From assembly GCF_009936045.1 (NCBI RefSeq), contig NZ_QWEQ01000005.1, forward strand, positions 62,001-126,000: a stretch of 64,000 nt of DNA. The letters run 5' to 3'. Positions 2,008 through 36,885 of the stretch are shown one piece after another; the first letter of the stretch is position 1, and each line of letters starts with the position of its first letter. Below the pieces are notes generated by a model, which made no database searches, had not been told where the DNA came from, and worked only from the letters and a program-made list of their open reading frames with translations. The position numbers were made by a program, and so were the translations under genes. Source of the stretch: Emergencia sp. 1XD21-10. Its GTDB lineage: Bacteria; Bacillota; Clostridia; Peptostreptococcales; Anaerovoracaceae.

Positions 2008-3636
2008 TTAGATAGCCTTTTCCTCCAATTCCACACTGTAAACGCTGGAAAACAAATGCTCCAGCTCATTTCCGAAGTTATAAGTGATTTTGATTTTGCG
2101 GTTTTCATAGACCTTTATTTCACTTATCATTTCCACCACAATATCTCTATCCAGTGCTTCAATGTCTTTTAATTCCAATAGTCTTTTCAACCAAGGTGTT
2201 TCAAAAACATCTTCCGTCACATTGTCTTTCTTCTTTTCTTCCAGTGCTTCAATCTGTTTGGAGTAAAGTTCTTCTTTTTTTAGATAATCCTCTCGGTAAG
2301 AAAGAAATTCTTCTTTGGAAATCAGTTCATCTCTGTAATCTTCGTATATGGATTTTTTGAGTTTTTTCACACGTTCCAATTCTGCTTTTACTTTGCTAAG
2401 TTCCGTATCAGTAATCTTTTTGACCTTTGAAGCTGTGAAACTCTGTGACTGTACCAATTCTTTCAAATCATCTACACTGTGGACGATTGCTTTCAAATCA
2501 TTCAGTACAATATCTTCCAAAACAGCCATTGGAAGTGTATGCGGCGTGCAATACTGCTTACCATTCCTCTTATATGTTCCACAATAAAGACTATATGTTT
2601 TACTCCCATCTGCACGTCGCCACATATTCTTTGCCATTGCCCTGCCGCAATCACCACATTTCACAAAACCAGCAAAGATGTTTTTATTCGTTTCCAAATC
2701 CAGCTCCCTTGTCCTTTTTGACAAAAGGGATTGCGCTTTATCCCAAGTTTCCTTATCTATAATCGGCTCATGGGTATTTTCAACGATTATCCAATCTTCT
2801 TTCGGCATTTTCTTCTGCTTGCTTCTCATGCGCTGGTGCTTTGTTCCCTGTACCATGTTCCCCACATACATTTCTCTGTGAAGAATACTATTGATTGTGG
2901 AATAAGACCAATACGTTGTACTTTCCAGACGGTTACAATTCTTGTAATTCTCACCGTTTACCTTTTTATACTCTGCCGGACAAAGGATACCTTCTGCGTT
3001 CAGCAACTTTGCGATTTTCTGTTTCCCATATCCCTGTATATATAGGGAAAAGATTCTGCGGACAACATCAGCAGCGTAATCATCAATCACCAGCTTGTTT
3101 TTATTTACTGGGGATTTCTTATAGCCATAACTTGTAAACGCCCCGATAAACTCACCAGCTTTTTGTTTTGATTTCACGGTTGCCTGTATCTTTTTGGAAA
3201 TATCCCTTGCATACTGTTCATTGAAAATGTTTTTGATTGGGAGCAGCATATCATACGCCTGTTTCATGCTATCAATACTATCTGTTACTGATATGAAACG
3301 CACTCCCAATTCTGGAAAGTATCGCTCCAAGTATCTTCCAGTATCAATGTAATCACGCCCGAATCTTGACAAATCCTTTACAACAACACAATTTACTTTT
3401 CCATCTTCAATATCCGCAATCATTCTCTGGAAACTAGGTCGGTTGAAATTCGTTCCCGAATAACCGTCGTCAATGTATGTGTCATACACAATAAAATCTT
3501 CTTTTTTAGCAACGTACTCTGTTAAGAGTTTTCTCTGATTTCCTACACTATCGCTTTCTTCCTTATCACCATCTTCTCTTGATAATCTGATATAGATTGC
3601 AACATTAAATAAGCTCAATACTTTTTGAAGTTTCAT
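2008..3636 (-). CDS. Large serine recombinase (ICE integrase/excisionase)
   Basis: At 542 residues it has the size and layout of large serine recombinases such as TndX. An N-terminal resolvase domain (residues about 12-165) carries the nucleophile Ser19 in the YIRLSRED motif, with DDGYSGTNF and KDLSRFGRD motifs further on. A recombinase domain follows, then a zinc ribbon (CGDCGRA and later YC...YC cysteines, about residues 325-370) and a charged coiled coil. The start at 3636 has AGGTGA four bases upstream. It lies 75 bp from the left junction, the usual place for the integrase, and should cut at the CCTCCATG core to integrate or excise the element. It replaces the tyrosine Int/Xis pair of Tn916. 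A small ORF with a strong ribosome site lies 82 bp upstream. Confidence 0.93.
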   Translation of the reverse strand: MKLQKVLSLFNVAIYIRLSREDGDKEESDSVGNQRKLLTEYVAKKEDFIVYDTYIDDGYSGTNFNRPSFQRMIADIEDGKVNCVVVKDLSRFGRDYIDTGRYLERYFPELGVRFISVTDSIDSMKQAYDMLLPIKNIFNEQYARDISKKIQATVKSKQKAGEFIGAFTSYGYKKSPVNKNKLVIDDYAADVVRRIFSLYIQGYGKQKIAKLLNAEGILCPAEYKKVNGENYKNCNRLESTTYWSYSTINSILHREMYVGNMVQGTKHQRMRSKQKKMPKEDWIIVENTHEPIIDKETWDKAQSLLSKRTRELDLETNKNIFAGFVKCGDCGRAMAKNMWRRADGSKTYSLYCGTYKRNGKQYCTPHTLPMAVLEDIVLNDLKAIVHSVDDLKELVQSQSFTASKVKKITDTELSKVKAELERVKKLKKSIYEDYRDELISKEEFLSYREDYLKKEELYSKQIEALEEKKKDNVTEDVFETPWLKRLLELKDIEALDRDIVVEMISEIKVYENRKIKITYNFGNELEHLFSSVYSVELEEKAI

Positions 3637-5515: not shown

Positions 5516-5872
5516 ATGCGTAAAAAAGAAGATAAGTATGATTTCAGAGCCTTTGGTCTTGCCATCAAAGAAGCTCGTAAAAAACAAGGTTTAACCCGTG
5601 AACAAGTGGGAGCAATGATTGAGATTGACCCACGTTATTTGACGAATATTGAGAATAAAGGTCAGCACCCAAGTTTACAGGTGTTTTATGACCTTGTTCA
5701 TTTGTTAAATGTATCAGCAGACGCTTTTTTCCTACCTGCTTCTGATCTGGAAAAAAGCACCAGAAGAATGCAGTTGGAAAAACAGCTTGATAGCTTGTCC
5801 GAAAAGGATTTGATTATCATAGAAAGCGTTGCTGATGGAATACTTAAATCGAAAAGAGTGGAGGAAAAGTAA
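5516..5872 (+). CDS. Tn916 Orf9-like XRE repressor
   Basis: The 118-residue protein has an N-terminal Cro/C1 HTH ([20 protein letters not shown] ... [12 protein letters not shown]) and closely resembles the Orf9 repressor of Tn916 from its first residues ([14 protein letters not shown]). It is the only plus-strand gene in the element's regulatory block. GAGGTG lies seven bases before the ATG. In Tn916 this protein represses transcription toward orf7/orf8. The AACAGGAAC repeats upstream may be its operator. Confidence 0.9.
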
Positions 5873-5884
5873 CCCTCCACCTTT

Positions 5885-6256
5885 TCAAAAATTCTTTATT
5901 AATTTGCCTAATAAATTGGTTACTTCACTATCTATTACACATTGTCCTTGAGAAACTAATTGTAATGTATTTGGAACAGAAATAATTTGCTCTTTTTTTA
6001 TAAGTCCACTTCCTCCGATATTTAATGCTTTAAAGCATTTTATTAAATTCCATTTTTCCGCAAAGAATATAACATTATCTGTGCTGTATTTTTTGATATA
6101 ATGCTTTATTTTATTAGAACTAATGTCAATATCTAATAGCAATATTATGTTGTCGGACAAAATCTCTTCATGTTGTGAATCTTCCCATAAAATAATGTCT
6201 TTTTTATTTGTTATTAAGACCACTTGTCCATATTCTGTATCAATATATTTGTACAT
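5885..6256 (-). CDS. Hypothetical protein of the exporter cassette
   Basis: This 123-residue AT-rich gene is the last of the minus-strand cargo operon. Its start codon overlaps the stop of the ABC permease, which suggests coupled translation. The product begins MYKYIDTEYGQVVLITNK, has no signal peptide or transmembrane segment, and contains alternating hydrophobic strands (IILLLDIDI). I do not recognise a family. From context it could be an accessory or immunity-like protein for the exporter, but nothing in the sequence proves that. Confidence 0.7.
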   Translation of the reverse strand: MYKYIDTEYGQVVLITNKKDIILWEDSQHEEILSDNIILLLDIDISSNKIKHYIKKYSTDNVIFFAEKWNLIKCFKALNIGGSGLIKKEQIISVPNTLQLVSQGQCVIDSEVTNLLGKLIKNF

Positions 6257-6990
6257 TATCCTTTCATCTTTCGTTTAAATACAATTACTGCTGGAATTAC
6301 AAGCACTATGGCATAGCCTAATATCCAAACTAAATGCAGTAATATATCTGAATAGCTACCACTAATAGCACAGCGCACTGCATCAACTGCATGAGAAAAG
6401 GGTAAAAGATTGCACACTTTTTGAAATGTTCCACCTATACTATCTAATGGAAGAACAGCACCACTTAAAAAGACAGCAGCGTTAACCAAAATTGTTCCAA
6501 ATCCATTGACTGAATTATTTGATGTGAACATACTTCCCATAAACAACCCAAAGGCTATAAATAAAACTGCAACGGGCAATAAAGTGATGATAGCCACCAA
6601 AACATTTTTATTTAATTCTAAGCCGAATATCATTGCTACTGCGAAACAGCAAATAGCCTGTAAAACTGCCAATGGGATAACAGGAATAGAATATCCCAAA
6701 ATATAATCAATGCTTTTTAATGGTGACGCAAATAATCTTGATAAAAATGAACTATCTCTATCGGTAGACATTAGAGTACCTACAAACATTCCTAAAAATG
6801 CCAATCCAAAGATAGTCATACTAGGAGCAAAATTTTGAACCTCAAAAATATCTGCCATTCCACCAATACTTTTTTTCATAAGCGATAATGCAACAATGAG
6901 AAGTACAGGAAATCCTATTCCCATCAAAATACTTGTAGGGTCTCTGGTTATTTCTTTAAAGTTGCGTCCTGCAAAAATTGAAAATTTCAT
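6256..6990 (-). CDS. ABC-2 type transporter permease
   Basis: The 244-residue membrane protein has about six hydrophobic segments and the GRNFKEITRDPTSILMGIGFP start typical of ABC-2 permeases of the DrrB/YadH kind. It overlaps the ATPase gene upstream by one base, so the pair forms an exporter. Family substrates include drugs, lantibiotics and lipids; the substrate here is unknown. The cassette occupies the tet(M) position of Tn916 and may provide resistance or immunity, which is inference. Confidence 0.9.
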   Translation of the reverse strand: MKFSIFAGRNFKEITRDPTSILMGIGFPVLLIVALSLMKKSIGGMADIFEVQNFAPSMTIFGLAFLGMFVGTLMSTDRDSSFLSRLFASPLKSIDYILGYSIPVIPLAVLQAICCFAVAMIFGLELNKNVLVAIITLLPVAVLFIAFGLFMGSMFTSNNSVNGFGTILVNAAVFLSGAVLPLDSIGGTFQKVCNLLPFSHAVDAVRCAISGSYSDILLHLVWILGYAIVLVIPAVIVFKRKMKG

Positions 6991-7718
6991 TAGTTTTTTC
7001 CTCCCTCTGTATACATAAGAAATGCTTCCTCCAAATTTCTACTTCCAGAAGCCTTTACAATTTCTTCAGCAGTTCCTAAAGCTTGAATGACACCTTTATC
7101 CATGATACAAATACGGTCTGCTAATGTTTCTGCTTCGTCTAAGTAATGTGTTGTAAGAATCAAAGTCACTTTACCTTTTAATTTCTCGATAGTTTTAAAC
7201 AAATCATGCCTAGCTCTGACATCAAGTCCTAATCCAGGTTCATCAAGAAAAAGGATTTTAGGATTACTAATTAAAGCCATTGAAATGCTTAATTTTCGTT
7301 GCCAACCACCAGATAAGGATTTTGCTCTGTCATTCTGGCGTTCCTTTAAATCAAAGGTTGCCATCATTCTTTCAGCTTTTTGCTCTGCTTGCTGCTTTGA
7401 ACTCCCATATAATCTTGCAATCATTACAAGGTTTTCTTTCACCGTTAATTTAGGAGCTACTGCGGTTTCCTGTGGAGAAAGATTAATTATTTCTTTTACA
7501 TTTTCTGATGATTTTGTAATGCTATTGCCGAGCATTAGTGCGTCGCCGCTTGTTGGAACAACTAAACAGCTAAGCATTCTGATAGTAGTTGTTTTTCCAG
7601 CACCATTTGAACCCAACATTGCAAAGAATTCGCCTTGTTTAATGTCAAGGTTTAAGGACTTTACAGCAGTTCGATTGCCATATTTTTTTGTCAAATCCCT
7701 AATTTGTATTGCATTCAT
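6990..7718 (-). CDS. ABC transporter ATP-binding protein
   Basis: This 242-residue ATPase has Walker A GSNGAGKTTT (about residue 35), signature LSGGWQRKLS, Walker B ILFLDEPGLGLD and the H-loop TTHYLDEAE. It resembles DrrA/CcmA-type subunits that drive ABC-2 exporters. Its start overlaps the end of the second AbrB gene, and its end overlaps the permease, so the four genes form one operon under the promoter at 8006-8034. Confidence 0.93.
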   Translation of the reverse strand: MNAIQIRDLTKKYGNRTAVKSLNLDIKQGEFFAMLGSNGAGKTTTIRMLSCLVVPTSGDALMLGNSITKSSENVKEIINLSPQETAVAPKLTVKENLVMIARLYGSSKQQAEQKAERMMATFDLKERQNDRAKSLSGGWQRKLSISMALISNPKILFLDEPGLGLDVRARHDLFKTIEKLKGKVTLILTTHYLDEAETLADRICIMDKGVIQALGTAEEIVKASGSRNLEEAFLMYTEGGKN

Positions 7719-7954
7719 TTTGTTTCCTCCTTAATTTGAAATGCCATTTTGAAGGCTTCATCACAACCCTCCATTTTTTGAATTGCTATCCCCCTGTCTT
7801 TATCTGCCAAAAGCAATAGCAACTCACCAATACGAATGTGAAATAAGTCACGAACATCTTTAGGTACAATAATCTGCCCTTTTGAGCCAACTTTAAGTGT
7901 TCCCAAATAGCGTCCGTTGTGATAGAAACTTTCGTTTACTGAATCATTATTCAA
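7715..7954 (-). CDS. AbrB/SpoVT-type DNA-binding regulator (operon copy)
   Basis: The 79-residue protein contains the swapped-hairpin AbrB fold signature LGTLKVGSKGQIIVPKDVRDLF. It starts with TTG at 7954, seven bases after GGAGGTG; no in-frame ATG fits. Its stop overlaps the ABC ATPase start. A perfect 31-bp palindrome lies just upstream, between promoter and gene, so this protein or its paralogue at 8130 is a likely autorepressor of the exporter operon. Confidence 0.88.
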   Translation of the reverse strand: MNNDSVNESFYHNGRYLGTLKVGSKGQIIVPKDVRDLFHIRIGELLLLLADKDRGIAIQKMEGCDEAFKMAFQIKEETK

Positions 7955-7973
7955 TACTCTTCACCTCCGATTC

Positions 7974-8004
7974 TCAGTATAACAAGTAATACTTGTTATA
8001 CTGA
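7974..8004. promoter_or_regulatory. Perfect 31-bp palindrome, likely AbrB-type operator
   Basis: Fifteen-base arms (TCAGTATAACAAGTA and its exact complement) flank one central base. It overlaps the expected transcription start of the exporter operon. Related half sequences (AGTATAAC) recur at 8041-8067 and 8397-8410, next to the second AbrB gene's promoter. Confidence 0.8.
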
Positions 8005-8005
8005 A

Positions 8006-8034
8006 ATGATACACCCAACAACTTACAAAGTCAA
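8006..8034 (-). promoter_or_regulatory. Sigma-A promoter of AbrB-ABC exporter operon
   Basis: On the minus strand TTGACT (8034-8029), a 17-bp spacer and TATCAT (8011-8006). The start point would fall inside the 31-bp palindrome. Confidence 0.7.
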
Positions 8035-8087
8035 GAGAAAAGTATAACTTTTCTTACTTGTTGTATTTTGTAGGAAAAATAACCATT

Positions 8088-8118
8088 AAAAAAGCAGCCC
8101 TGCAATCAGAGCTGCTTT
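8088..8118 (-). terminator. Terminator after the upstream AbrB gene
   Basis: Minus strand AAAGCAGC ... GCTGCTTT stem followed by a T-run, 12 bp after the stop of the AbrB gene at 8130. It separates that gene from the downstream exporter operon. Confidence 0.85.
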
Positions 8119-8129
8119 AACAAATAGGT

Positions 8130-8363
8130 TTATTCAGTTGGTTTTTCTTTTGCCTTGAAAACTTGTTCAAAAAAACTCTCATAAACTTCATATTTTTGAA
8201 CTGCAATACCTTGTTGTGCGTCTGCTAAAAGTACCAATGTATCACCTGTATTAATACCGAGCATTTCTCTAGCTTCTTTTGGTATTACTATTTGTCCTTT
8301 AGGACCAACTTTCACAGAACCCACAAATTTATCGTTTTTAGATTTTTCTTTACTGGCTGCCAT
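8130..8363 (-). CDS. AbrB/SpoVT-type DNA-binding regulator (separate copy)
   Basis: The 77-residue protein carries GSVKVGPKGQIVIPKEAREMLGI, the AbrB/MazE-like swapped hairpin. I chose the ATG at 8363; a GTG at 8375 is too close to the AAAGGA site. It has its own promoter (8416-8444) and terminator (8088-8118), so it is expressed separately from the paralogue at 7715. An AGTATAAC word between promoter and gene suggests shared control of both transcripts. Confidence 0.85.
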   Translation of the reverse strand: MAASKEKSKNDKFVGSVKVGPKGQIVIPKEAREMLGINTGDTLVLLADAQQGIAVQKYEVYESFFEQVFKAKEKPTE

Positions 8364-8396
8364 AATATATATCACGTCCTTTCATTTTTTCTCAAA

Positions 8397-8444
8397 AGTA
8401 TAACTTGTATGATAAATTATACCATTGATTCCAAATTGAATCAA
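8397..8444 (-). promoter_or_regulatory. Promoter and AbrB half-operator of the separate AbrB gene
   Basis: Minus strand TTGATT (8444-8439), 17-bp spacer, TATAAT (8421-8416). Directly downstream is AGTATAACTTGTAT (plus strand 8397-8410), matching one arm of the palindrome at 7974-8004. Confidence 0.7.
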
Positions 8445-8460
8445 GAATCAATTCGTGCAG

Positions 8461-9366
8461 CTATTCTACAATCTTCCAGTTACTATCTTTTTGCAGCGTC
8501 AAATCAAACTGTGAAATCTGTGTTGCTTTCGTTCTCTGGTCGAGATACTTCACCGATACCGACACTTTGACCTGTTCCCCATCTTTAATGAAGATAGGAT
8601 TTACCAACTCTGAAAACAGATAATCACAGTTTACAGGTTCAAGCACATTTCCAGATACATAATAGGCAAGCTCTTTTTCCGTAGCAGTAGGGTACAGCTT
8701 AAAGAATGTTTCCAAAAACTCTGTTACTTCCTCCGTAGTGGCAGCGTCCACCGCTCCGTCAGATTCCTTTGTTTTTGGTTCATAGCTGGATTTTGTTGGT
8801 ATACTGCTGATGGTTGGATTCTGTGTGATAACCATGTTTCCGTCACCATCTACATGAACCACTACCATGTAAGCGGAAGTGTAGCCGATTGATGTTTCGC
8901 CCTCCGTTACCGTCTGATCTACCGAGTAGACAACGGTAAAGTCGTCTGTTCCAGCCTGTTCTATATCCCATATTTTTACGTCTGTAACCGCCACACTTGT
9001 GGGTATATCCTGCCTTATGGTATCGACATTCAAATCCTGCAAGCTCTTAGTCAGATAGTTGCTGATTGCTGCGGTTCTTTTATCAATGGATTCTTGCGTA
9101 TTGCTCCAAGAATAGTAGTCTAAAGCAAAGGCTTTGACAAAGTTCTCTATCCTGTTAGTGTCAACAATTCTTTGTTCAATGACTTCTTTTTCATGTACCG
9201 TGTGCATATCAATGGCGGTGAAATTCTTATACACCCCAAAACTGACGCTTGCAATCAGCACCAGCCATAAGGCAATCACGGTTTTCTTGTGTGTGCCGAC
9301 TTTCATCACAGGCACTCGTTTTTCTTTTTTCGGTTTTGATTCCTTGTCCTTTTTCTTAAATATCAT
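8461..9366 (-). CDS. TcpC/Orf13-type conjugal transfer protein
   Basis: This 301-residue protein has a short charged cytoplasmic N-terminus, one transmembrane helix (about residues 30-50, TVIALWLVLIASVSFGVY) and a large extracellular part, as in TcpC of pCW3 and Tn916 Orf13. These proteins form two NTF2-like domains, resemble VirB8, and anchor the transfer machine at the membrane. It is the last gene of the minus-strand transfer operon, 15 bp after the CwlT gene. Confidence 0.9.
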   Translation of the reverse strand: MIFKKKDKESKPKKEKRVPVMKVGTHKKTVIALWLVLIASVSFGVYKNFTAIDMHTVHEKEVIEQRIVDTNRIENFVKAFALDYYSWSNTQESIDKRTAAISNYLTKSLQDLNVDTIRQDIPTSVAVTDVKIWDIEQAGTDDFTVVYSVDQTVTEGETSIGYTSAYMVVVHVDGDGNMVITQNPTISSIPTKSSYEPKTKESDGAVDAATTEEVTEFLETFFKLYPTATEKELAYYVSGNVLEPVNCDYLFSELVNPIFIKDGEQVKVSVSVKYLDQRTKATQISQFDLTLQKDSNWKIVE

Positions 9367-21515: not shown

Positions 21516-24500
21516 TTAGTCAGATTTCTTTACTCTGCGGAATCTCTTATAACCTGCAAAGATAAGACCAGCAGCAGAAATTCCCATCATAGCGAGTAAT
21601 GCGGCGAATGGCGTATTGTCACCAGTTTTTGGTGAATCGCTTGGCTTCGTTGGTGTGATAGGTTCTTCTGGTGTAGTAGGGGATTCTGGTTTTTCCTTGA
21701 TTGTCACCGTCTGCCCCTCGTCCTTGATGTCCTTATGTTCCGCTACTTTGATAGGCTTGTCTGGATTTGTCACGTCGTACAATTCTTCAAAAGTGACAAG
21801 CTCTTTACCACCTAGCTCACTGGCATTGAATGTAAATTCAATCTGAACCTCCATCTTAGTATCTGTAGCGGTGAAAGTAAGGTCATTTTTCACACGCTTA
21901 CCATTAACGATAAGTTCTGTATTTTCCGATTTCACCATTTCCCAACCTTTAAGGGTATATTTCACGTCTTTTTCAAGACCATCTAAGGTAACAGTATCAA
22001 CGATAGTTACGTCCTTACCAGCTTCGATTGTCTTTTTACCTGTTGCCTTGTCGGTAGCGGTTGTGTGCATAGTGATGATACGCTCTGTGATTGTCACCGT
22101 CTGTTCGTCGTCTTTGATGTCCTTGTGTTCAGCTACTTTGGTAGACTCGTCTGGATTTGTCATATCGTATAATTCTTCAAAAGTGACAAGCTCCTTACCT
22201 GCAAGCTCACTGGCATTGAAAGTAAATGCAATCTCGACTTCCATTTTGGAATCGTCTGCGGTAAAGTTAAGGTCATTTTCCACAGGTTTACCGTCTATAA
22301 GAAGCTGTGCATTTTCAGACTTCACCATTTCCCAACCTTTAAGGGCGTATTTCACGCCTTTTTCAAGCCCATCTAAAGTGACCGTATCAACGATAGTCAC
22401 GCTCTTACCAGCAACAATCATCTTTTCACCTGTTGCCTTGTTGGTAGCTGTGGTATGAATGGTAATGATTCTTTCCTCGATTTTTACAGTCTGCCCGTCG
22501 TCCTCAATGTCCTTGTGTTCAGCCACCTTGATAGGCTCGTCTGGATTGGAAAGGTCGTACAATTCTTCAAACGTCACAAGGCCTTTGCCACCTAAAGCAC
22601 TGGCATTGAATGTATAGGAAACTTCAACTTCCATTTTGGAATCTTTTGCAGTGAATGAGTAATCACTTTCCACAGGTTTACCATCAATAAGAAGTTGTGC
22701 ATTTTCAGATTTCACCATCTGCCAGCCTTTGAGCTGGTATTTTGTTCCCTTTTTCAATCCGTCTAAAGTGACCGTATCAACGATAGTCACACTCTTACCA
22801 GCAATGATTGACTTTTCGCCTGTTACCTTGTCGGTAGCTGTGGTATGGATAGAGATTTCTGGTTCGTAATCATCTGTCAATGTTCCCAAGTCAACGACAG
22901 TCTTATTGCGTGATACCACCACATCAAAGGCAGGAATCAAGGTCATTCCTTTGTTGGAATCACAGCGTAATTCCTCAATCTCATAAGTATCATAGAGTAA
23001 AGCACCTTTGCTGTCGTCTGGTTCAGATGTTCCAAACCAGATACCGTCCTCACTGGATTTACCAGCGTTTGTATTCTGCTTATGAGATACCCAGTCAGCA
23101 GCAGTAGAGAACTGACCGTTTTTATCAGTCACAATGATGTGGCTTTCACCAGTCGTCTTGCTTGTGATCCTAAACGAAACATTCGCAAGTCGCTTGTGAG
23201 TACCGTCACCGATTTTGACACCCTCAATATCACCACGTTTAATCTGATTGTAAACAGAGTGTACTTCGTCAGTTAAATCAACGATTTTTCCATTCTCTGT
23301 GATTGCAAACTCAATCGGTTTTGCACCGTCAGTCAAATATCCCTCTGGAGCTTTACTTTCTTCGATACGGTATTTTCCGTATGGTAACGTATCTGCGTCA
23401 GTCGTAGCGATACCGTCAATGCCTGTATGGATTGTTTTGACAACTTCATTCTTGCTATATAACTTGCCACCTACCAAGACAGCTTTATCATTCAAGGAAA
23501 CAATCTCAAAGGCAGTATCTTTCAAAGTTGCACCGCCTTGTGCTTTTGTATCTTTTGTTTCAAGGTCACGCTTCTGGATTTTCACACCGCCACGGATAAC
23601 CTTGTCTGATACGGAATACTGGTTGCTGCCGCTTAACGCTGCAAGTTCACCGTTCTCTGTAATCTGTGCCACATACACGCCTTTTATCTGTTCAGAACTT
23701 CCAGCGGCTTGCATATAAGCACCCTCTAACAAGTAACCCTTTGGAGCTGTCTTTTCTTCCACAGTGATAGTACCAAGCGGCAAGCAGATAGTACCATTCT
23801 GTGTATAGAAGCTGTCACCAGATACTTTGTAAGCGTCAGCTAAACGTGTAATGTAATGGACTTCATTCTTGCTGTCTTTTTCAACGATTGTCTTTGTCGT
23901 CCATGTGCGTGTCGGCTCTGATGGGAGATTGTCTTTTGTGTAATATCCGTCATAATATTTCCAGACGAACTCCGCACCCTCCAAAGAAGCGTTACCTTGT
24001 GCGGTTGATTTGGAAGTTTCCATATCAATCTTGAAAAGCTCAACCAATGTGTCTGTGACCTTTGGTGTATCGCTGACTTTTAAGGTAGCAGTTTCACCAG
24101 CTTTGACCGTAAGGGTATAGACGTTCTTATCTAACTGGAATCCCTTTGGAGCTTTTGTTTCTTTCACAAAGTATGTTGCTGCCCTTAATTCCACTGTATC
24201 AGTGTTTCCATTACTATCTGTCGTAAGTGTGGCAACAGATTTCGTGCAGCCCTTATCAGAATAGACACCATAAGTCGCACCAGATAAAGAATAGCAGTCA
24301 TTAGATTGTGTAACCGCTGTATTACTGGACGATTTCTGAATCTTGCCATTTCCGACAGCCAACTTCGCCCAGAACTGTCCTAAGTCCTGCCCCTCACCGA
24401 CGTAGATATAACCGCCACAGTCATAGCGTCCTTTATTTTCTTTGACAAAGGCTTTTGCTCCTGCGAATACTTCATCTTGTACGGATTTTGAAATTTCATC

Positions 24501-24950
24501 ATAAGAAGCTCGGACATTATCACATTTCCAGCCTAGGTGAACACTCAATCTCTGCCAGACAACTAACTGTCTTAACAAGTAAGCGTGTTTGCTACCAAGT
24601 CCGCTGTGGCTTTTCGCATACTGTTTAACGTATTCAATAGATAAGGCAACGTCGGCTATCTGGTCGTCACTCATGCGTGTACTTGCGTCAGCTCTGGTCT
24701 TGTAACCATTTTTAAAGCCAGTATTGATGTCAATGCAGTAAGCGTCCTCGCCATCAACAGTCATGTGTCCTTCGTTGAATGTTTCACTGATTGAGCCATC
24801 ATTATTGACACGTTCAACAATTCCGACACGTTCCTCTGATTCTGTCCAGTATTGCGTTTCCGCTGCATGAACAGCAGTAGTGGGTAATGCAGTAAAAACG
24901 GTTGCAAGGGTGAGAACCCCCGTAAGTAATCGCTTCATAATCTTTTTCAT
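21516..24950 (-). CDS. Thioester/VaFE-repeat surface-anchored adhesin
   Basis: The ATG at 24950, ten bases after GAAAGGAGA, gives 1144 residues with a signal peptide ending near VHAAE. An N-terminal thioester domain follows, with the Cys of DAYCID and the Gln of RQLVVWQ, the pair known to form the intramolecular thioester that binds host ligands covalently. Next are SpaA/Cna-B type Ig domains, each ending in a Lys-Ala-Pro-Glu-Gly-type EESKAPEGY segment, then three VaFE repeats of about 130 residues. A Pro/Thr linker leads to the sorting signal SPKTGDN, a hydrophobic helix and a basic tail. SPKTG instead of LPXTG points to a variant sortase substrate. No sortase gene is in the element. It probably mediates attachment, perhaps mating-pair contact. 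Confidence 0.92.
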   Translation of the reverse strand: MKKIMKRLLTGVLTLATVFTALPTTAVHAAETQYWTESEERVGIVERVNNDGSISETFNEGHMTVDGEDAYCIDINTGFKNGYKTRADASTRMSDDQIADVALSIEYVKQYAKSHSGLGSKHAYLLRQLVVWQRLSVHLGWKCDNVRASYDEISKSVQDEVFAGAKAFVKENKGRYDCGGYIYVGEGQDLGQFWAKLAVGNGKIQKSSSNTAVTQSNDCYSLSGATYGVYSDKGCTKSVATLTTDSNGNTDTVELRAATYFVKETKAPKGFQLDKNVYTLTVKAGETATLKVSDTPKVTDTLVELFKIDMETSKSTAQGNASLEGAEFVWKYYDGYYTKDNLPSEPTRTWTTKTIVEKDSKNEVHYITRLADAYKVSGDSFYTQNGTICLPLGTITVEEKTAPKGYLLEGAYMQAAGSSEQIKGVYVAQITENGELAALSGSNQYSVSDKVIRGGVKIQKRDLETKDTKAQGGATLKDTAFEIVSLNDKAVLVGGKLYSKNEVVKTIHTGIDGIATTDADTLPYGKYRIEESKAPEGYLTDGAKPIEFAITENGKIVDLTDEVHSVYNQIKRGDIEGVKIGDGTHKRLANVSFRITSKTTGESHIIVTDKNGQFSTAADWVSHKQNTNAGKSSEDGIWFGTSEPDDSKGALLYDTYEIEELRCDSNKGMTLIPAFDVVVSRNKTVVDLGTLTDDYEPEISIHTTATDKVTGEKSIIAGKSVTIVDTVTLDGLKKGTKYQLKGWQMVKSENAQLLIDGKPVESDYSFTAKDSKMEVEVSYTFNASALGGKGLVTFEELYDLSNPDEPIKVAEHKDIEDDGQTVKIEERIITIHTTATNKATGEKMIVAGKSVTIVDTVTLDGLEKGVKYALKGWEMVKSENAQLLIDGKPVENDLNFTADDSKMEVEIAFTFNASELAGKELVTFEELYDMTNPDESTKVAEHKDIKDDEQTVTITERIITMHTTATDKATGKKTIEAGKDVTIVDTVTLDGLEKDVKYTLKGWEMVKSENTELIVNGKRVKNDLTFTATDTKMEVQIEFTFNASELGGKELVTFEELYDVTNPDKPIKVAEHKDIKDEGQTVTIKEKPESPTTPEEPITPTKPSDSPKTGDNTPFAALLAMMGISAAGLIFAGYKRFRRVKKSD
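21690..22860 (-). repeat. Three tandem ~390-bp VaFE-domain coding repeats
   Basis: Three near-copies start near 22860, 22470 and 22080, each encoding HTTAT-K-TGEK ... VDTVTLDGL ... LKGWEMVKSENAQL ... VTFEELYD ... VAEHKDI. High nucleotide similarity suggests recent duplication and possible copy-number variation by recombination. Confidence 0.85.
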
Positions 24951-25096
24951 AATATTTGATTCTCCTTTCGATTTTTGGGTAAAAAAATAGACGCTCATTT
25001 CTGAACGTCTACAACTTGAAAGGCTTGTCCTCTCACACATATTTAATTTTGATAGGTACAACAGTTGCCTTTCTTTCAGTAATATCGTTATCAGCC

Positions 25097-27568: not shown

Positions 27569-28225
27569 TTATTCTTCTTCCATCGGTTTCATTTCTGGAT
27601 CGAAGTGAAGTTTGCAGCCAGTTGCTGTCTGAATATCTTCTTTGCTGTAATCCGGATGTAATTCTGTTACCCAGATGCCATCTTCTCTGACTTCCATTAC
27701 GCCCATTTCAGTAATGATTTTGCTGACGCACTTTTCAGCGGTCAAAGGTAATGTGCACTTTTCTAAGATTTTGTGATTACCCTTCTGGGTGTGCAGCATT
27801 ACGATGATAACCTCCGGACAGCCTGCACAAAGGTCCATAGCACCGCCCATACCAGCAACTTTCTTGCCTGGAACAATCCAGTTTGCCAAATCGCCGTTTT
27901 CAGCAACTTCCATAGCGCCAAGGACTGTAGCTTTTACGTGTCCGCCTCTTACAAGACCGAAAGATTCTGCAGTATCAAAGAACTTTGCTCTTGGCAGTGC
28001 AGTTACATATACACCACCAGAGTTGATGATATCAACATCTGTATTGGTTTCGTCTGCAACAGCATCAATACCTGCAAATCCATTTTCGGAGTGGCAGGTT
28101 ACTGCAATGTCATCTGGAATATAGTCTGCTACCATGGTAGGAAGGCCGATTCCCAGGTTAATAAAATCGCCGTCTTTAAATTCCTTTGCGCATCTCTTCG
28201 CAATTCTCTGTTTTAAATCTGCCAT
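27569..28225 (-). CDS. atoA: Butyryl-CoA:acetoacetate CoA-transferase, beta subunit
   Basis: This 218-residue protein is the B subunit of the 3-oxoacid CoA-transferase family. The catalytic glutamate is in CHSENGFAGI (about residue 50), followed by NSGGVYVTALP and GGAMDLCAG. In lysine fermentation it exchanges CoA between butyryl-CoA and acetoacetate, giving butyrate and acetoacetyl-CoA. Its start overlaps the end of the A subunit by 13 bp. GGAG bases precede the ATG. Confidence 0.93.
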   Translation of the reverse strand: MADLKQRIAKRCAKEFKDGDFINLGIGLPTMVADYIPDDIAVTCHSENGFAGIDAVADETNTDVDIINSGGVYVTALPRAKFFDTAESFGLVRGGHVKATVLGAMEVAENGDLANWIVPGKKVAGMGGAMDLCAGCPEVIIVMLHTQKGNHKILEKCTLPLTAEKCVSKIITEMGVMEVREDGIWVTELHPDYSKEDIQTATGCKLHFDPEMKPMEEE

Positions 28226-28926
28226 CTCTTTTCTCCTTCCACAATAGCATCTACGAGAACGCCTGCAACTGCAAAGTAGTCAGGGTCAATCTCTTTAATT
28301 TCAACAATCTTTTCCGGTGCAATGATGGTGTGCTCTGCAGCACCAGCCATTACATAGTTAAAGTTTTTCGTTGTCTTGGAACAATAGTAGTTACCAAATT
28401 TATCAGCTACAGTAGGTCTGATGAACGCATAGTCAGCGCGCAGCGGCATTTCGAATAAGTACTTCTTGCCTTCCAGTTCTACAACTTTCTTTTCTCTTCC
28501 TAATTCGTCCAGCTCTTCCTGCACCGGTGTACCAACACCAGTCGGAGTCAGAACACCACCAAGACCGTAAGCTGCTGCTCTGATCTTTTCTGCTAAAGTA
28601 CCCTGTGGAACCAGTGTGCACTTCAGTGTGCCTGCTACCATGCCATCGCCAATCAGCGGGTTCATACCTACGTGGGAAGCGATGATGTGGTCAACCATAC
28701 CAGCTTCGAGCAGTTTACCGATACCTCTTGCAGTCTTAGCGCCGTAAGTTCCTACTGGCAGACCGCCGTCGTTACCGATTACTGTCAAATGCTTAACGCC
28801 TTTTCTTACAAGTGCGTCCATGATAACTTCCGGGGAACCTGTGCCCAGGAAACCGCCGACCATAATGGTCATGCCGTCTTTAACGCCTGCAACTGCTTCA
28901 TCAGCAGTCATAATTTTGTTAATCAT
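28213..28926 (-). CDS. atoD: Butyryl-CoA:acetoacetate CoA-transferase, alpha subunit
   Basis: The 237-residue A subunit starts with MINKIMTADEAVAGVKDGMT and has the VGGFLGTGSPE CoA-binding loop and later PLRADYAFIRPT, typical of AtoD/CtfA. It pairs with the overlapping atoA product. It is separated from kamE by a 250-bp structured gap (28927-29177), so it may be differently expressed from the kam genes. GAAAGGTGAT lies before the ATG. Confidence 0.93.
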   Translation of the reverse strand: MINKIMTADEAVAGVKDGMTIMVGGFLGTGSPEVIMDALVRKGVKHLTVIGNDGGLPVGTYGAKTARGIGKLLEAGMVDHIIASHVGMNPLIGDGMVAGTLKCTLVPQGTLAEKIRAAAYGLGGVLTPTGVGTPVQEELDELGREKKVVELEGKKYLFEMPLRADYAFIRPTVADKFGNYYCSKTTKNFNYVMAGAAEHTIIAPEKIVEIKEIDPDYFAVAGVLVDAIVEGEKRWQI

Positions 28927-28966
28927 TTTACAATCACCTTTCTATATCATATTAGTTTAAACAATA

Positions 28967-29153
28967 ACAACCCCACCCTTCCACGAAGCAAAGCTTCGGG
29001 CGGGTGCCCGGGAACCTTGTTGTCCTAAGGCAATAAGTGTTCATGAGAAAATCATACACCAAACGGATACATCTTGCAAGAGGATTCTTGTCCAAAATCT
29101 GTACCCTCCGCATGTGATAATGGGCGCTGAACTTAAAGTTCAGGCGCCCGCAA
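28967..29153 (-). other. Structured intercistronic region between kamE and atoD
   Basis: No gene fits. A nested hairpin at 28967-29023 has AACAA/TTGTT, CACCC/GGGTG and GAAGC/GCTTC helices. A second strong stem at 29125-29153 pairs GGGCGC-TGAACTT with AAGTTCA-GGCGCCC. Neither has a T-run, so RNA processing or stability control, rather than termination, is the likelier role. Confidence 0.5.
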
Positions 29154-29177
29154 CTCATGTCATATTATCATATGAGA

Positions 29178-29972
29178 TTAGCGATCAGCGATATTTTTCT
29201 TATCCTGCCAGCCTCTCTTTTCTACTTCCTGCATGATGTAGGACATAACGTGTTCTGCATACTTTCCAGGACCAAAACCTGCGTCGTAGCCCAGTTCCTG
29301 TGCTAATTCGTGGGAAATTCTAGGACCGCCGCAAGTCAGGATAATTTTGTCACGCAGACCTTCCGCTTCCATCAGTTCAACCATTTTGGTCAGCTGCTGG
29401 ATGTGAATGTCCTTCTGTGTTACTGTCTGGGATACCAGAATTGCATCAGCGTTCAGTTCTTTTGCTTTTGCAATTAACTGTTCACAAGGAACCTGGGAAC
29501 CCATGTTATGCGGATCTACATTCTTAAATCTTTCCAGACCGAAGTGACCGTGGAAGCCCTTCATCTGAATGATTGCGTCGATACCTACAGTATGCGCGTC
29601 AGATTCGATGGATGCACCTACAACGGTGATATCTCTGCCGATGTGTTCGCCAATCCATTCGCCGCATTCCACACGATCCATTACAGTACCTTCAACCTTA
29701 GGAACATTGATAGCTGTAAAGTCGATAGTTGGCTGTGCGGAGCCGTAAACGTTAAAGAATGTATATCCTGTTGTCAGTTCGCAGTAGTAAGCTACGTTTG
29801 GCTCAGCCAAACCTAATTTCTTAGCATACTGCTTTGCGCATTCTTCAGCTTCTTCACCGTAAGGTACAGGAAGAGTGAAGGCTAACTGAACTTTACCGTC
29901 GTTAAGTGCATCGCCGTAAGGCTTAACACAAGTTAAATCTACACTGCTTGTTGCTTTGCATTCTGTTGTCAT
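29178..29972 (-). CDS. kamE: Lysine 5,6-aminomutase beta subunit
   Basis: The 264-residue protein has the cobalamin-binding motif DAHTVG (Asp125-His127-Gly130) and Lys138 eleven residues after the ligand His. This is the same spacing as His133/Lys144 of the characterised clostridial enzyme, where Lys144 holds PLP. With KamD it moves the terminal amino group of beta-lysine to give 3,5-diaminohexanoate, using adenosylcobalamin and PLP. It lies 17 bp after kamD. AAGGAGG precedes the ATG. Confidence 0.95.
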   Translation of the reverse strand: MTTECKATSSVDLTCVKPYGDALNDGKVQLAFTLPVPYGEEAEECAKQYAKKLGLAEPNVAYYCELTTGYTFFNVYGSAQPTIDFTAINVPKVEGTVMDRVECGEWIGEHIGRDITVVGASIESDAHTVGIDAIIQMKGFHGHFGLERFKNVDPHNMGSQVPCEQLIAKAKELNADAILVSQTVTQKDIHIQQLTKMVELMEAEGLRDKIILTCGGPRISHELAQELGYDAGFGPGKYAEHVMSYIMQEVEKRGWQDKKNIADR

Positions 29973-29989
29973 GACCTTGCACCTCCTTA

Positions 29990-31543
29990 TTATTCATGAT
30001 CCATAAACAATTCAATAAACGGATTGAAGTAGTTTTCACCTTTAGTGGAAACACCTTCCAGACCGTGACCACCGTCAAACGGACGTTTCACGCCACCGAA
30101 GATACCCTTTTCGATTGTGGAGAAGAGACCTTCTTTTTCAACTTCAGCAAGAAGAGCGTCTGCTTTGCCCAGAACTTCCTGTGCTCTCTTCTGAATGATA
30201 CCGTCCTTCTTGAACTCAACTTCTTCACCGATGTGTCTGCAGTTGTTGAAAATGTAACGAGCATTTTCAATGGACAGATATCTATCCTGCATCAGCGGTG
30301 TATGAATTGCTTCTGTCAGCATACCAGTCAACAGCAGGGACTGATTCGTCCAAACTGTTACTAAGTTGAACAGCGCATCCTGCAGGTGACCTCTAAAGAT
30401 GTTACCTGTCATGAACTTTGTAGGAGGCATGTATTTTAATCTTGCCTTAGGGAAGATTTCTCTTGCCATCTGTGCCTGAGACAGTTCAAGCAGGAAGCCG
30501 TCTTCAGTAGCAGGATCCATTTCAAATGCGTGACCCAGACCCATCTGTTCTTCAGGAATGTTAGCAAGTACTGCAAACTGTTCGTTGATGAACTGAGAAG
30601 CAGTTACAGTGTGAGCTGCTTCGATTGCGTCGTCTGTTGTCAGGTAGTTGTCTTCACCGGAGTTAAAGATGATACCGCAGTAACCGATGATAACACGGCT
30701 CATGAACTGGTCAACCAGTGTTCTCTGCATGTTGATATCTCTGAACAGGATACCGTAGATAGCGTCATTTAACATTACGTCTAATCTTTCCAGTGCGCCC
30801 ATTGCAGCGATTTCAGGCATACACATACCGGAGGAGTAGTTACACAGTCTGATGTATCTGCCAACTTCTTCACCAACTTCGTCCAGTGCTTTTCTCATGA
30901 TTCTAAAGTTTTCCTGCGTAGCGTAAGTACCACCAAAGCCTTCAGTTGTTGCGCCATAAGGTACATAGTCAAGCAGGGACTGTGCAGTAGTTCTGATTAC
31001 AGCGATGATGTCTGCACCCTGTCTGGCAGCAGCCTGTGCCTGAATCACGTCTTCGTAAATGTTACCAGTAGCAACGATTACGTAGATGTAAGGCTCTGAT
31101 CCTTCACCGATAGTGTCTAAGTACTCCTGACGCTTTGCTTTCTGCATGTCAATTCTTTCGAAAGTAGCTTTGATTGCAGGCTTTAATGCTTCAGCAGCTT
31201 CTGCCTGGGAGCAGGTCGGAAGTTTTGTGATATCCAGTTTGCCTGCAGCCATTTCTTCTGCGATTTCCTGCGGTGTCTTGCCAGTCTGTACGATTGCATT
31301 ACCAATCCAATAAGCGACACCTGTCGGCAGCGCACCCGCATCCTTCAGCTGGTCTACTACCACGTTTGGAAGCGGTGTGTCAACATCGTCTACACCGTCA
31401 ACTCCCAAAAGTCTCAGAATTGTTCTCTCTGTGCTGACTGTAGTGTGTCTGTCAATGAAGTCCTGCATGTCATGTGCAATGTTTGCCGCATGCTGACGAG
31501 CACTGTCAACTACTTTTGGGTCAAGGTTTAATTTGCTTTTCAT
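29990..31543 (-). CDS. kamD: Lysine 5,6-aminomutase alpha subunit
   Basis: The 517-residue protein matches KamD throughout (MKSKLNLDPKVVDSARQHA, DVIQAQAAARQGADIIAVIRTTAQSLL, YGATTEGFGGT). It forms the TIM-barrel catalytic subunit that binds PLP and the adenosyl part of B12 together with KamE. It follows the reactivase gene kamC by 14 bp with GGAGAG bases before the ATG. Confidence 0.95.
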   Translation of the reverse strand: MKSKLNLDPKVVDSARQHAANIAHDMQDFIDRHTTVSTERTILRLLGVDGVDDVDTPLPNVVVDQLKDAGALPTGVAYWIGNAIVQTGKTPQEIAEEMAAGKLDITKLPTCSQAEAAEALKPAIKATFERIDMQKAKRQEYLDTIGEGSEPYIYVIVATGNIYEDVIQAQAAARQGADIIAVIRTTAQSLLDYVPYGATTEGFGGTYATQENFRIMRKALDEVGEEVGRYIRLCNYSSGMCMPEIAAMGALERLDVMLNDAIYGILFRDINMQRTLVDQFMSRVIIGYCGIIFNSGEDNYLTTDDAIEAAHTVTASQFINEQFAVLANIPEEQMGLGHAFEMDPATEDGFLLELSQAQMAREIFPKARLKYMPPTKFMTGNIFRGHLQDALFNLVTVWTNQSLLLTGMLTEAIHTPLMQDRYLSIENARYIFNNCRHIGEEVEFKKDGIIQKRAQEVLGKADALLAEVEKEGLFSTIEKGIFGGVKRPFDGGHGLEGVSTKGENYFNPFIELFMDHE

Positions 31544-31557
31544 CCTTTTCTCTCTCC

Positions 31558-33201
31558 TTATTTTATATATTTTTGTGCTCCATCAATAATTTCCTTATTG
31601 ATGCCTAACATTTTCGCGATATTAAGCGCGTCTTTTGGTATTTGCCCTTGTTTTTCTACCGTATATAAACGATAGTCCATATACTTAGAAATTATATTAA
31701 TCCGCTCTTTCCTATTCGCATATTTTAACTCGCTGTCGAGTTTGCGGAAGTCAACATCTGCCAGGCCTCGCACCTGCATATTCTTAACCCCGTTTTCCTC
31801 GGTCACCGCCTCAAAATGCGTAGTCATGAGGGTAATATACGGTTTGTCTTTGAGGTAATCCACAAGGCTTCTGGTCAGCGCCAGACCCTCAATCGGATTG
31901 GTTCCGCTGGCAATCTCATCGATGAGAAGCAGCGAACGATCTTCACTGTGATCTAAAATTTCTTTGAGTTCTTCCATCTCGCTTCCGAAACTGGAAAGAC
32001 CTCTCTCGACCGACTGGCTGTCTCCAATGAGAATCTGCATATAGTTAGAAAGGCCCACCTTTGCCTTTTGACAAGGAACAAAGAATCCATACTGCGCCAA
32101 AATCGGCACCAGTCCAGAAAGCTTCAGTGAAATGGTCTTTCCTCCCATATTGGCACCTGTAATACAGGTAACTCCGTCAGTCAAGGAAATGCTTACCGGA
32201 CAGTAAGTTTTCCCCTTGGACTTCAGCACGTCTTCAACTTTGGATTGTCTGCCTTCTACGATTTCAACGATATGCGCCTCAACGATTTCCGGCTTTACGC
32301 AGTCGTGCTTGATGGCATAAAGGGCTTTGCCCAATGCCACATCGAGAAGTCCAATTCGTTTACAGTTACGCAGAAGCACATCTGCAAACTCTGCTATTTT
32401 TAGGGAAAGACGCTGCCTTACAACGGTTTCTTCTTCCTCAATTTCGGTAACCAGATTTTCCATCTGCTCTGTCAGTGCATAAATCTTTTCATCAGGTTTT
32501 AATTCAAAGGTTACGGTCATGTAATCTTCATCCACCTGCTGCAAATCCGGCACGGCTTTATACTTTTCCAGCTCTCCGCCGGTCTTCGATACTGCACAGT
32601 CAAACTTCGGCGTTAAAATGATACCGTATTCTCTCTGAATCTCCGCTTTTTTCGCCTTCTGCGTCTTTCTGATAGAAACCTCTATGCTGTGCTTTTCCTT
32701 TCGCAGCTGCGCCAGCTTTTCAGAAAAGTCATCATAGATATAAAAAGTATTAATTCTGTCTTTGCTTGGATCCAGCTCGTCCAAAAGAGCTTCCGTCGGT
32801 TCCAGCGTAAACTCCACCGGAACTTTCGTGGTCGTTTCCCCGCAAATCTTTTCAATTTTTCTCATCATCAGAAGCAGAGTCTTTACTTCGTAGAGTTCTA
32901 CGACGGAAAGTGCATTTCTACTGCTTCGCTCGATGGTATATGTAGTATCCTTGATTTCCATGAAGGCTTCTGAAAGCAGCTCTACGCAGCGCTGATTTTC
33001 CTTCGCAAAGGCAATCATGTCCTCGATTTTATCAAGTTCTGCGCGAAGTTCCTCTTCCTCACCCGGAAAAAAAGGTTTGGTTTCTTTTAATATATTTTTA
33101 CCAAAAGGGGTATTTAAGTCAATCTGCTGCATGACATAGTCAAGACCAGTTTCTGCTTTAGTCTTGACATTGGCAAGCCGCCTGTTTGAACCGTGTTTCA
33201 T
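31558..33201 (-). CDS. kamC: KamC, MutS-related ATPase of aminomutase reactivation
   Basis: The 547-residue protein has a C-terminal MutS-type ATPase domain with Walker A TGANMGGKTIS (about residue 350), Walker B LLLIDEIASGTNP and a TTHFE switch. Its N-terminal part is unlike DNA-binding MutS. In lysine-fermenting clostridia this gene neighbours kamDE, and the product is named the ATPase of the aminomutase reactivase, thought to exchange damaged cobalamin. It lies between kamB and kamD with tight spacing. Confidence 0.85.
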   Translation of the reverse strand: MKHGSNRRLANVKTKAETGLDYVMQQIDLNTPFGKNILKETKPFFPGEEEELRAELDKIEDMIAFAKENQRCVELLSEAFMEIKDTTYTIERSSRNALSVVELYEVKTLLLMMRKIEKICGETTTKVPVEFTLEPTEALLDELDPSKDRINTFYIYDDFSEKLAQLRKEKHSIEVSIRKTQKAKKAEIQREYGIILTPKFDCAVSKTGGELEKYKAVPDLQQVDEDYMTVTFELKPDEKIYALTEQMENLVTEIEEEETVVRQRLSLKIAEFADVLLRNCKRIGLLDVALGKALYAIKHDCVKPEIVEAHIVEIVEGRQSKVEDVLKSKGKTYCPVSISLTDGVTCITGANMGGKTISLKLSGLVPILAQYGFFVPCQKAKVGLSNYMQILIGDSQSVERGLSSFGSEMEELKEILDHSEDRSLLLIDEIASGTNPIEGLALTRSLVDYLKDKPYITLMTTHFEAVTEENGVKNMQVRGLADVDFRKLDSELKYANRKERINIISKYMDYRLYTVEKQGQIPKDALNIAKMLGINKEIIDGAQKYIK

Positions 33202-33216
33202 AAATCCTCCTTCTGT

Positions 33217-34233: not shown

Positions 34234-34280
34234 TTCTTATCCCTGTTTGTTCTAAAATTTCTGTATTTCTCGTTATAAAG

Positions 34281-34308
34281 GTATAGGGAGACCCAAGCCT
34301 CCCTATAC
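34281..34308. other. Intercistronic hairpin between kamA and kamB
   Basis: GTATAGGGAG and CTCCCTATAC form a perfect 10-bp stem with an 8-nt loop, without a T-run. It is one of several T-less stems between genes of this operon and may mark an mRNA processing or stability site. Confidence 0.6.
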
Positions 34309-34319
34309 GCATACACCAA

Positions 34320-35579: not shown

Positions 35580-35652
35580 AATAATAAATCTCCTTAAATT
35601 CGTGATTTAAATTTGTATGATTATAAATTAAATTGAAGTTTTTCTTATGATA

Positions 35653-35681
35653 GCCACAGCTTCCGAAAAGGAAGCCGTGGC
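35653..35681. other. Intercistronic hairpin between kdd and kamA
   Basis: A 12-bp stem (GCCACAGCTTCC / GGAAGCCGTGGC, one G-T pair) with a 5-nt loop and no T-run. Likely an mRNA processing or stability element. Confidence 0.6.
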
Positions 35682-35733
35682 AGTAAAGTTTGTGTTATGT
35701 TGATTTTATAATTTGATGTACATCATCGATTGA

Positions 35734-36801: not shown

Positions 36802-36885
36802 AATAATCATCCTCCTAGAAAAATATTAACTCTTTTAAAATTTATGCCAAGGCATAATTTATGACTATCTATATTATAAAACTGT

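Follow-up and report, generated by a model that had tools for sequence, protein, structure and literature searches.

Genes of the cassette

We analysed a window of 64,000 nt from Emergencia sp. 1XD21-10 (contig NZ_QWEQ01000005.1, positions 62,001-126,000, forward strand); "the window" below means this whole stretch, and positions are counted within it. Five open reading frames (ORFs) on the minus strand fill positions 5885-8444 and encode two AbrB-type regulators (AbrB2 and AbrB1), the ATPase and the permease of an ATP-binding cassette (ABC) exporter, and a protein of 123 amino acids (aa). The Pfam scan showed that this cassette is framed by a TcpC/orf13 gene and an orf9-like helix-turn-helix (HTH) gene. 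Our reading, to which we give a probability of about 0.7 on the strength of sequence comparison, is that the cassette is an ABC-2 exporter module of resistance type which represses itself and which forms the cargo of a Tn916-like element, at the tet(M) slot. The features of the locus are as follows.

8461-9366, minus strand: TcpC/orf13, backbone gene of an integrative and conjugative element (ICE) and one edge of the slot (PF12642, 209.3 bits; cut-off 27)
8416-8444, minus strand: predicted AbrB2 promoter, TTGATT-17-TATAAT (10 of 12)
8397-8423, minus strand: candidate operator O3, three 9-bp units, the first containing the -10 (29.2 bits)
8130-8363, minus strand: AbrB2, 77 aa (PF04014, 39.4 bits; cut-off 24.7)
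8091-8118, minus strand: predicted intrinsic terminator after AbrB2, hairpin and T-run (-18.4 kcal/mol, z -5.1)
8041-8067, minus strand: candidate operator O2, imperfect (22.8 bits)
8006-8034, minus strand: predicted AbrB1-exporter promoter, TTGACT-17-TATCAT (10 of 12)
7974-8004: perfect 31-bp palindrome, containing candidate operator O1 (7976-8002; 35.1 bits)
7715-7954, minus strand: AbrB1, 79 aa, TTG start (PF04014, 35.2 bits; cut-off 24.7)
6990-7718, minus strand: ABC ATPase, DrrA-like (PF00005, 108.8 bits)
6256-6990, minus strand: ABC-2 permease, DrrB-like (PF01061, 91.1 bits; cut-off 26.9)
5885-6256, minus strand: 123-aa protein, its ATG overlapping the permease stop (TAATG)
5516-5872, plus strand: orf9-like XRE (HTH) protein, the opposite edge of the slot (PF01381, 50.9 bits)

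An earlier sequence-only reading of this DNA had named two AbrB-type regulators and an ABC-2 exporter, and the family matches confirmed them. In addition to PF04014, both regulators matched the NCBIfam model lp_hng_hel_AbrB (TIGR01439) with 44.5 bits for AbrB1 and 47.6 bits for AbrB2 (cut-off 28.3). The AbrB/MazE regulators are a known family, and the domain suggests that AbrB1 and AbrB2 bind DNA as swapped-hairpin dimers. The TTG start of AbrB1 is preceded, 7 bases upstream, by GGAGGTG. The ATPase gene adjoins the permease gene and both products match their families over the cut-off, which identifies a predicted ABC-2 exporter. The PADLOC matches of the ATPase were attributed to the common ATP-binding fold, and a profile search at 0.001 yielded no solved relative of the permease.

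The cassette in the tet(M) slot

The surroundings of the cassette are those of a Tn916-like ICE, as judged from its genes: conjugation genes lie on one side, and the orf9-like regulator, a sigma-like gene, an HTH_16 gene and a recombinase lie on the other. A Pfam scan of the window found PF12642, Sigma70_r4, HTH_16, Recombinase and HTH_3 in order. We take the flanking genes to correspond to orf13 and orf9 of Tn916. The recombinase is a large serine recombinase (2008-3636; Pfam Recombinase match). A TcpC match at 1e-20 was present in 11 of 297 genomes of the order, the genome under study included.

We compared stretches of 19-20 kb at six TcpC loci, among them that of a further element of the genome under study. 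In three of these elements (G482, G011 and G574), Tet(M) lies between TcpC and a like orf9 gene, with NF012155 scores of 1492-1503 bits (cut-off 1420). The claim that the exporter cassette takes the place of tet(M) is thus supported both by the family matches and by related elements in which the same two genes flank Tet(M). Two further slots hold other cargo, namely an Mg-type P-type ATPase in G1042 and an ABC transporter in G1098, the latter with genes resembling a two-component system behind it. The second Tn916-like element of the same genome (G000:C71:178413-179309; L188, L191) has a TcpC 66% identical to the one here, and its slot holds a TetR-like gene (PF00440, 22.6 bits, just below the cut-off, which is 24) together with a protein that matches no family. 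The neighbourhood of 12 other TcpC loci (that of the second element and 11 from 10 further genomes) contained no AbrB over a distance of about 1.5 kb, or up to the contig end where this came sooner, L186 being cut off in this way. The idea that AbrB2 is a gene of the ICE backbone was dropped on this account.

A long palindrome and two predicted promoters

The 31-bp palindrome consists of 15 perfect pairs around one base, and the next longest palindrome in the window has 8 pairs. Sixty Markov-simulated windows reached 7 to 11 pairs, and the expected number of palindromes of this length is 7e-5, so the perfect palindrome noted earlier is confirmed and greatly exceeds what chance would give. One base separates its start from the -10 of the AbrB1-exporter promoter, and O2 sits just upstream of the -35 of the same promoter, the centres of O1 and O2 being 65 bp apart. 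O3 covers the -10 of the predicted AbrB2 promoter. Promoter-like matches as such are not above shuffles around the cassette (6 vs 13.7).

The sequence-only reading had placed the palindrome at the start of the operon. Its position stands, and the transcription of the cassette needs a correction: a hairpin and T-run at 8091-8118 lie between AbrB2 and AbrB1, and AbrB2 and AbrB1-exporter are therefore probably separate transcription units. This terminator was not among the matches of a consensus scan. Likewise, the "related half sites" of that reading were found at the places given for them, but each is a complete site, with its outer halves spaced as in O1 (8041-8067 and 8397-8423), and not a half.

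Relatives of the exporter and their regulators

A scan of genome_contigs with the single permease protein found no relative, which suggests that this close form of the permease is rare there. With a permease alignment, in contrast, genome_contigs gave 468 related stretches; we kept the best 80, and 77 of these had room upstream. Among 397 further genomes of the phylum, the alignment matched 17 at 1e-30, and it had no match in viral_contigs. In each of the 80 kept loci, the permease is immediately preceded by an ATPase match. Upstream of the ATPase-permease pair, an AbrB was found in 34 of the 77 loci (one of them with two AbrBs) and none in the other 43. In ten of the 34, the AbrB domain is fused to an XRE HTH, both families being matched in every one, which leaves 24 loci with AbrB only. 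Among the 43 loci without AbrB, 38 upstream ORFs matched a TetR C-terminal family. One type of exporter is thus served by three types of regulator.

The loci that hold AbrB are titled mainly as lineages of Bacillota, with single contigs of Kosmotogaceae, Fervidobacterium, Anaerolineaceae and Spirochaetia; the latter contigs come from metagenome bins and may be strays. On the S. xylosus plasmid NZ_CP066723, an AbrB is followed by an ATPase (found by tblastn, absent from the gene table) and a permease 54% identical to the one here. When the cassette was looked for elsewhere, the combination of an AbrB pair with the 123-aa gene was not found, but the core of AbrB, ATPase and permease proved widespread. 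In a tree of AbrB proteins, AbrB2 groups with exporter-linked AbrBs in a well-supported set of 21 rows, and AbrB1 is a long branch. The tree does not show the two to be sisters, and forcing them together was not rejected (p-AU 0.168, 74 columns).

A 27-bp motif derived from other loci

The upstream regions of AbrB genes numbered 55; removal of 6 identical ones left 49, comprising 37 AbrB-only regions and 12 from XRE-AbrB fusions. A Gibbs search was trained on these 37 AbrB-only regions, all from exporter loci and with the window excluded. It returned a 27-bp motif with an information content of 23.9 bits, compared with 9.3, 9.8 and 10.1 bits in three letter-shuffled sets that were given fewer restarts (3 of 40 rounds vs 8 of 60). 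The best three non-overlapping places of this motif in the whole window are 7976-8002, 8397-8423 and 8041-8067, and the fourth scores 7.3 bits. A motif trained on other loci thus recovered as its best three the sites that the sequence-only reading had picked out. A strict pattern, GTATAAY-N11-RTTATAC, was also tried and matched 39 of 291 genomes of the class; because its reversed control matched as often (42), it was judged too loose and the 27-bp matrix was used instead.

The motif is composed of three 9-bp units, with the majority sequence AGTATAATA AGTTATACA AGTAATACT, each of which is a GT-N3-AC dyad. The GT is present at units 1, 2 and 3 in 36, 32 and 23 of the 37 regions, respectively, and the AC in 14, 33 and 35; unit 1, which often doubles as the -10, mostly ends in AT (18/37). 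None of the 37 relatives has a perfect palindrome, and their core pairs range from 2 to 11 of 12, most often 7. The earlier claim of a palindromic operator therefore holds for the site and needs amendment as to its form: the conserved feature is an array of three 9-bp GT-N3-AC dyads, of which the long palindrome is a special case. Some weak symmetry persists between the centres of units 1 and 3 (p 0.017 in a shuffling test, this being one among six comparisons).

The -10 of the best promoter lies in or beside the site in 27 of the 37 loci, compared with a mean of 3.2 and a maximum of 8 in shuffled regions, which fits the expectation for a repressor site. In 15 loci, it occupies a constant position within unit 1, and 7 loci have it just before that unit. 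O3 has the former layout and O1 nearly has the latter.

The motif follows the regulator

In a leave-one-out analysis, 34 of the 37 AbrB-only exporter loci scored at least 12 bits. The same threshold was reached upstream of none of 33 TetR-led exporters (those of the 43 upstream ORFs of non-AbrB loci that were kept by a TetR start motif) and in 5 of 1000 random 150-bp stretches of the longer loci. The motif was found in none of the 12 upstream regions of XRE-AbrB fusions, also when 505-700 bp were searched (highest score 6.9 bits). The fusion-led exporter loci without the motif are L111, L112, L121-L123, L128, L141, L142, L158 and L159.

An independent test set was formed from 26 AbrB loci of the same bacterial family, which had been retrieved through their AbrB only and had no part in training; the fusion exporter L031, already counted among the 12, was left out. 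The motif was present at 25 of them with at least 16.7 bits, L021 alone lacking it. At 19 of the 26 loci (L005-L008, L010-L018, L020, L022, L023, L025, L029 and L032; one cut by the contig end), the AbrB gene is followed 3-38 bases on, on the same strand, by a gene for a glycosyltransferase of the macrolide family; the copy at L007 scores 283.3 bits against TIGR01426 (cut-off 260). Some of the remaining loci have a distinct, distant ABC ATPase nearby (27-34% identity). In these comparisons, the motif tracks the type of regulator, AbrB-only, and not the pump. The genome under study also holds, at L003 (G000:C71:4394-4576), a broken AbrB gene with one internal TGA and an operator-like site of 19.4 bits upstream.

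Proposed mechanism and alternative explanations

In the layout read from the sequence, O3 lies over the -10 of the AbrB2 promoter and O1 and O2 bracket the AbrB1-exporter promoter. AbrB dimers would bind the 9-bp GT-N3-AC units side by side and would shut both promoters, keeping the levels of the AbrB proteins and of the pump low. The exported compound, or the stress that it causes, would free the promoters so that the pump is made, and the action of the pump would amount to resistance by export. Two AbrBs and three sites could sharpen the response, and the 123-aa protein, whose gene would be translationally coupled to that of the permease, may help either the pump or the regulators. The self-control proposed in the sequence-only reading is strongly supported by comparison, as the motif was trained elsewhere and is specific to AbrB-only loci. 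Its suggestion of a resistance or immunity function is a fair one, because the cassette occupies the tet(M) slot, its proteins are DrrAB-like and the same pair of regulator and operator precedes glycosyltransferases of the macrolide family.

Several observations weigh against this explanation. Three of the 37 AbrB-only loci score below 12 bits, and at L091 (-7 bits) and L077 (8 bits) there is no convincing site. Independence among the 37 loci is incomplete, with one site shared by L004 and L009, and the 26 other AbrB loci all come from one bacterial family and are not mutually independent. The model does not account for the presence of two AbrBs; the only other tandem pair that we met is that of L076/L136, probably one and the same locus, where a site precedes each gene. 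The ATPase and the permease miss the curated DrrA and DrrB cut-offs (256.9 bits against TIGR01188, cut-off 312.45, and 61 bits against TIGR00025, cut-off 146.9), and these scores leave the substrate class not fixed. Finally, an AbrB homologue of a C. difficile element was reported, in the accessible part of the source (PMC6814731), to exert no repression on nearby genes during exponential phase, although it may differ in kind.

The exporter might instead provide immunity or self-protection against a bacteriocin or lantibiotic and not pump a small-molecule drug, which we consider unlikely but worth keeping in view. Conjugative transposon modules of C. difficile often hold ABC transporters that, in the portion of the publication available, are proposed to act on antimicrobial peptides (PMC3158075), and the best NCBIfam match of the ABC ATPase in a related element, below the cut-off, is a bacteriocin-export family. 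However, the Pfam and NCBIfam scans recognised no peptide, protease or known immunity gene in the cassette, and the ATPase scores higher against the DrrA family than against the lantibiotic-protection family (136.2 bits), both matches being below cut-off. The palindrome could also act as RNA, as a 5' hairpin that stabilises the AbrB1 transcript or hides its start, the likeness to the other sites then being secondary. A transcript from the predicted start would indeed open with a 14-bp stem (-17.3 kcal/mol, z -5.0). This scenario is nevertheless very improbable, since the relatives keep the letters of the units and not the perfect palindrome, and since in the 15 of 37 relatives with the predicted -10 inside unit 1 the whole site cannot be in the RNA.

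We give hardly any credence to the proposal that the AbrB pair is antitoxin-like or controls the ICE, being aimed at conjugation or host genes with the exporter as a passenger. Both regulators do match the MazE antitoxin domain. Yet the Pfam and NCBIfam scans found no toxin family among the neighbours (AbrB, ABC ATPase and TcpC), so the AbrBs have no adjoining toxin gene as a type II toxin-antitoxin system of the mazEF or parD kind would have. In addition, no further non-overlapping site above 7.3 bits exists within the window, the other TcpC loci lack a nearby AbrB, and the AbrB-exporter core is present in many other genomes. The self-repressed exporter cassette thus remains the explanation that we prefer.

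The 123-aa gene

The sequence-only reading had included in the cassette an overlapping gene without a recognised family, and the 123-aa ORF, starting on the permease stop, agrees with this. Its product had no match in NCBIfam or PADLOC, none over the cut-off in Pfam and none among plasmid sequences or viral_contigs; a Pfam match to Nucleoporin_N (E 0.017, under the cut-off) was set aside. Searches of the 80 named exporter loci by tblastn at E 0.01 revealed no relative of the gene.

At 1e-3, with its own genome excluded, the gene had a match in a single genome among 296 of the order and in three among 330 of the class, one genome being common to both sets. Of the three matches, L175 and L197 are response regulators of the NarL type, each with a receiver and a LuxR-type HTH, L175 adjoining a histidine kinase; the likeness extends over the receiver's second half and into the linker. 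The third match, L198, lies antisense to an ORF that by eye is tRNA-synthetase-like, and is hence due to chance. The scores are 23.1 and 23.4 bits for L175 and L197 and 22.9 bits for L198, and in a tblastn search over the pooled loci at E 10, L198 appeared while L175 and L197 did not. A two-row profile built around L175 gave 25.6 bits vs 11.9 for the best of 2000 shuffles, L175 itself being the best of many, and a wider receiver profile gave 11.5 bits vs 8.5 for the best of 500 shuffles. Neither the PF00072 receiver nor an HTH was matched in the 123-aa protein, which by these families does not class as a NarL-type response regulator, and its AlphaFold model, with a pLDDT of 44, is too poor to be of use. 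The idea of a degenerate NarL-type receiver was set back, since the chance match scores equally high, and we leave the gene unassigned; tentatively, the protein may be the relic of such a receiver without its HTH.

Other features of the window

An 1181-aa ORF with a TTG start (21516-25061) adjoins the conjugation genes; it has repeated stretches and an SPKTGD motif followed by a hydrophobic C-terminal end, and by eye its product resembles a sortase-anchored surface protein. The flanking genes at 27569-36810 resemble, again by eye, a lysine-fermentation cluster.

Relation to known systems and significance

Elements of the Tn916/Tn5397 type share the frame of TcpC/orf13 and an orf9-like gene, with Tet(M) in the slot in the three related elements; the present element differs in its cargo, which consists of AbrB, AbrB, ATPase, permease and the 123-aa gene, and in its large serine recombinase (2008-3636). 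The varied cargo of Tn916-like elements has been published (PMC7288454), as have, in the passages accessible to us, ABC-transporter cargo in C. difficile conjugative transposons (PMC3158075) and AbrB-family genes in C. difficile mobile elements (PMC6814731, PMC6435816). The cassette shares its regulator domain (PF04014, TIGR01439) with MazE, Kis and AbrB. According to the available part of the report (PMC4803016), Kis represses parD through two palindromes, of which the perfect one covers the -10 and the imperfect one precedes the -35, a layout like that of this cassette. Unlike the MazE/Kis/AbrB systems, the cassette has no toxin partner, its operator consists of three 9-bp GT-N3-AC units, and it leads an exporter. 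DrrAB exporters likewise have a separate ATPase and permease, and TIGR01188 and TIGR00025 are the best NCBIfam matches of the two proteins, but the latter fall below both curated cut-offs and are led by AbrB. The closest likeness in gene order and operator is with the other AbrB-ATPase-permease operons (S. xylosus NZ_CP066723 and the 24 AbrB-only loci), which differ in having one AbrB as a rule and, in the named loci, no relative of the 123-aa gene. In the openly accessible literature that was searched, subscription papers being mostly outside it, the papers listed included no published AbrB-exporter or AbrB-glycosyltransferase operon, no AbrB-only operator and no description of this cassette; a C. 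thermocellum regulon study does not mention AbrB in its accessible part (PMC8457756).

A wider and more speculative interpretation, which we hold to be possible but less than even, is that one-domain AbrBs of about 70-105 aa form an as yet undescribed class of drug-responsive regulators. One dimer would bind each 9-bp dyad, three of them on 27 bp over the -10, and the pair of regulator and site would be a portable switch placed before unrelated detoxifying genes (ABC-2 exporters and macrolide-family glycosyltransferases) in several phyla and spread in part by ICEs. In the cassette described here, the doubled regulator and the three operators would make a sharper, two-tier switch.

If our reading is true, the DNA site used by a widespread group of small AbrBs is now identified, and their target genes become predictable from sequence. 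It would also tie small AbrBs to genes that handle drugs, and a regulated efflux cassette would join the cargo known for mobile elements of the tet(M) type.

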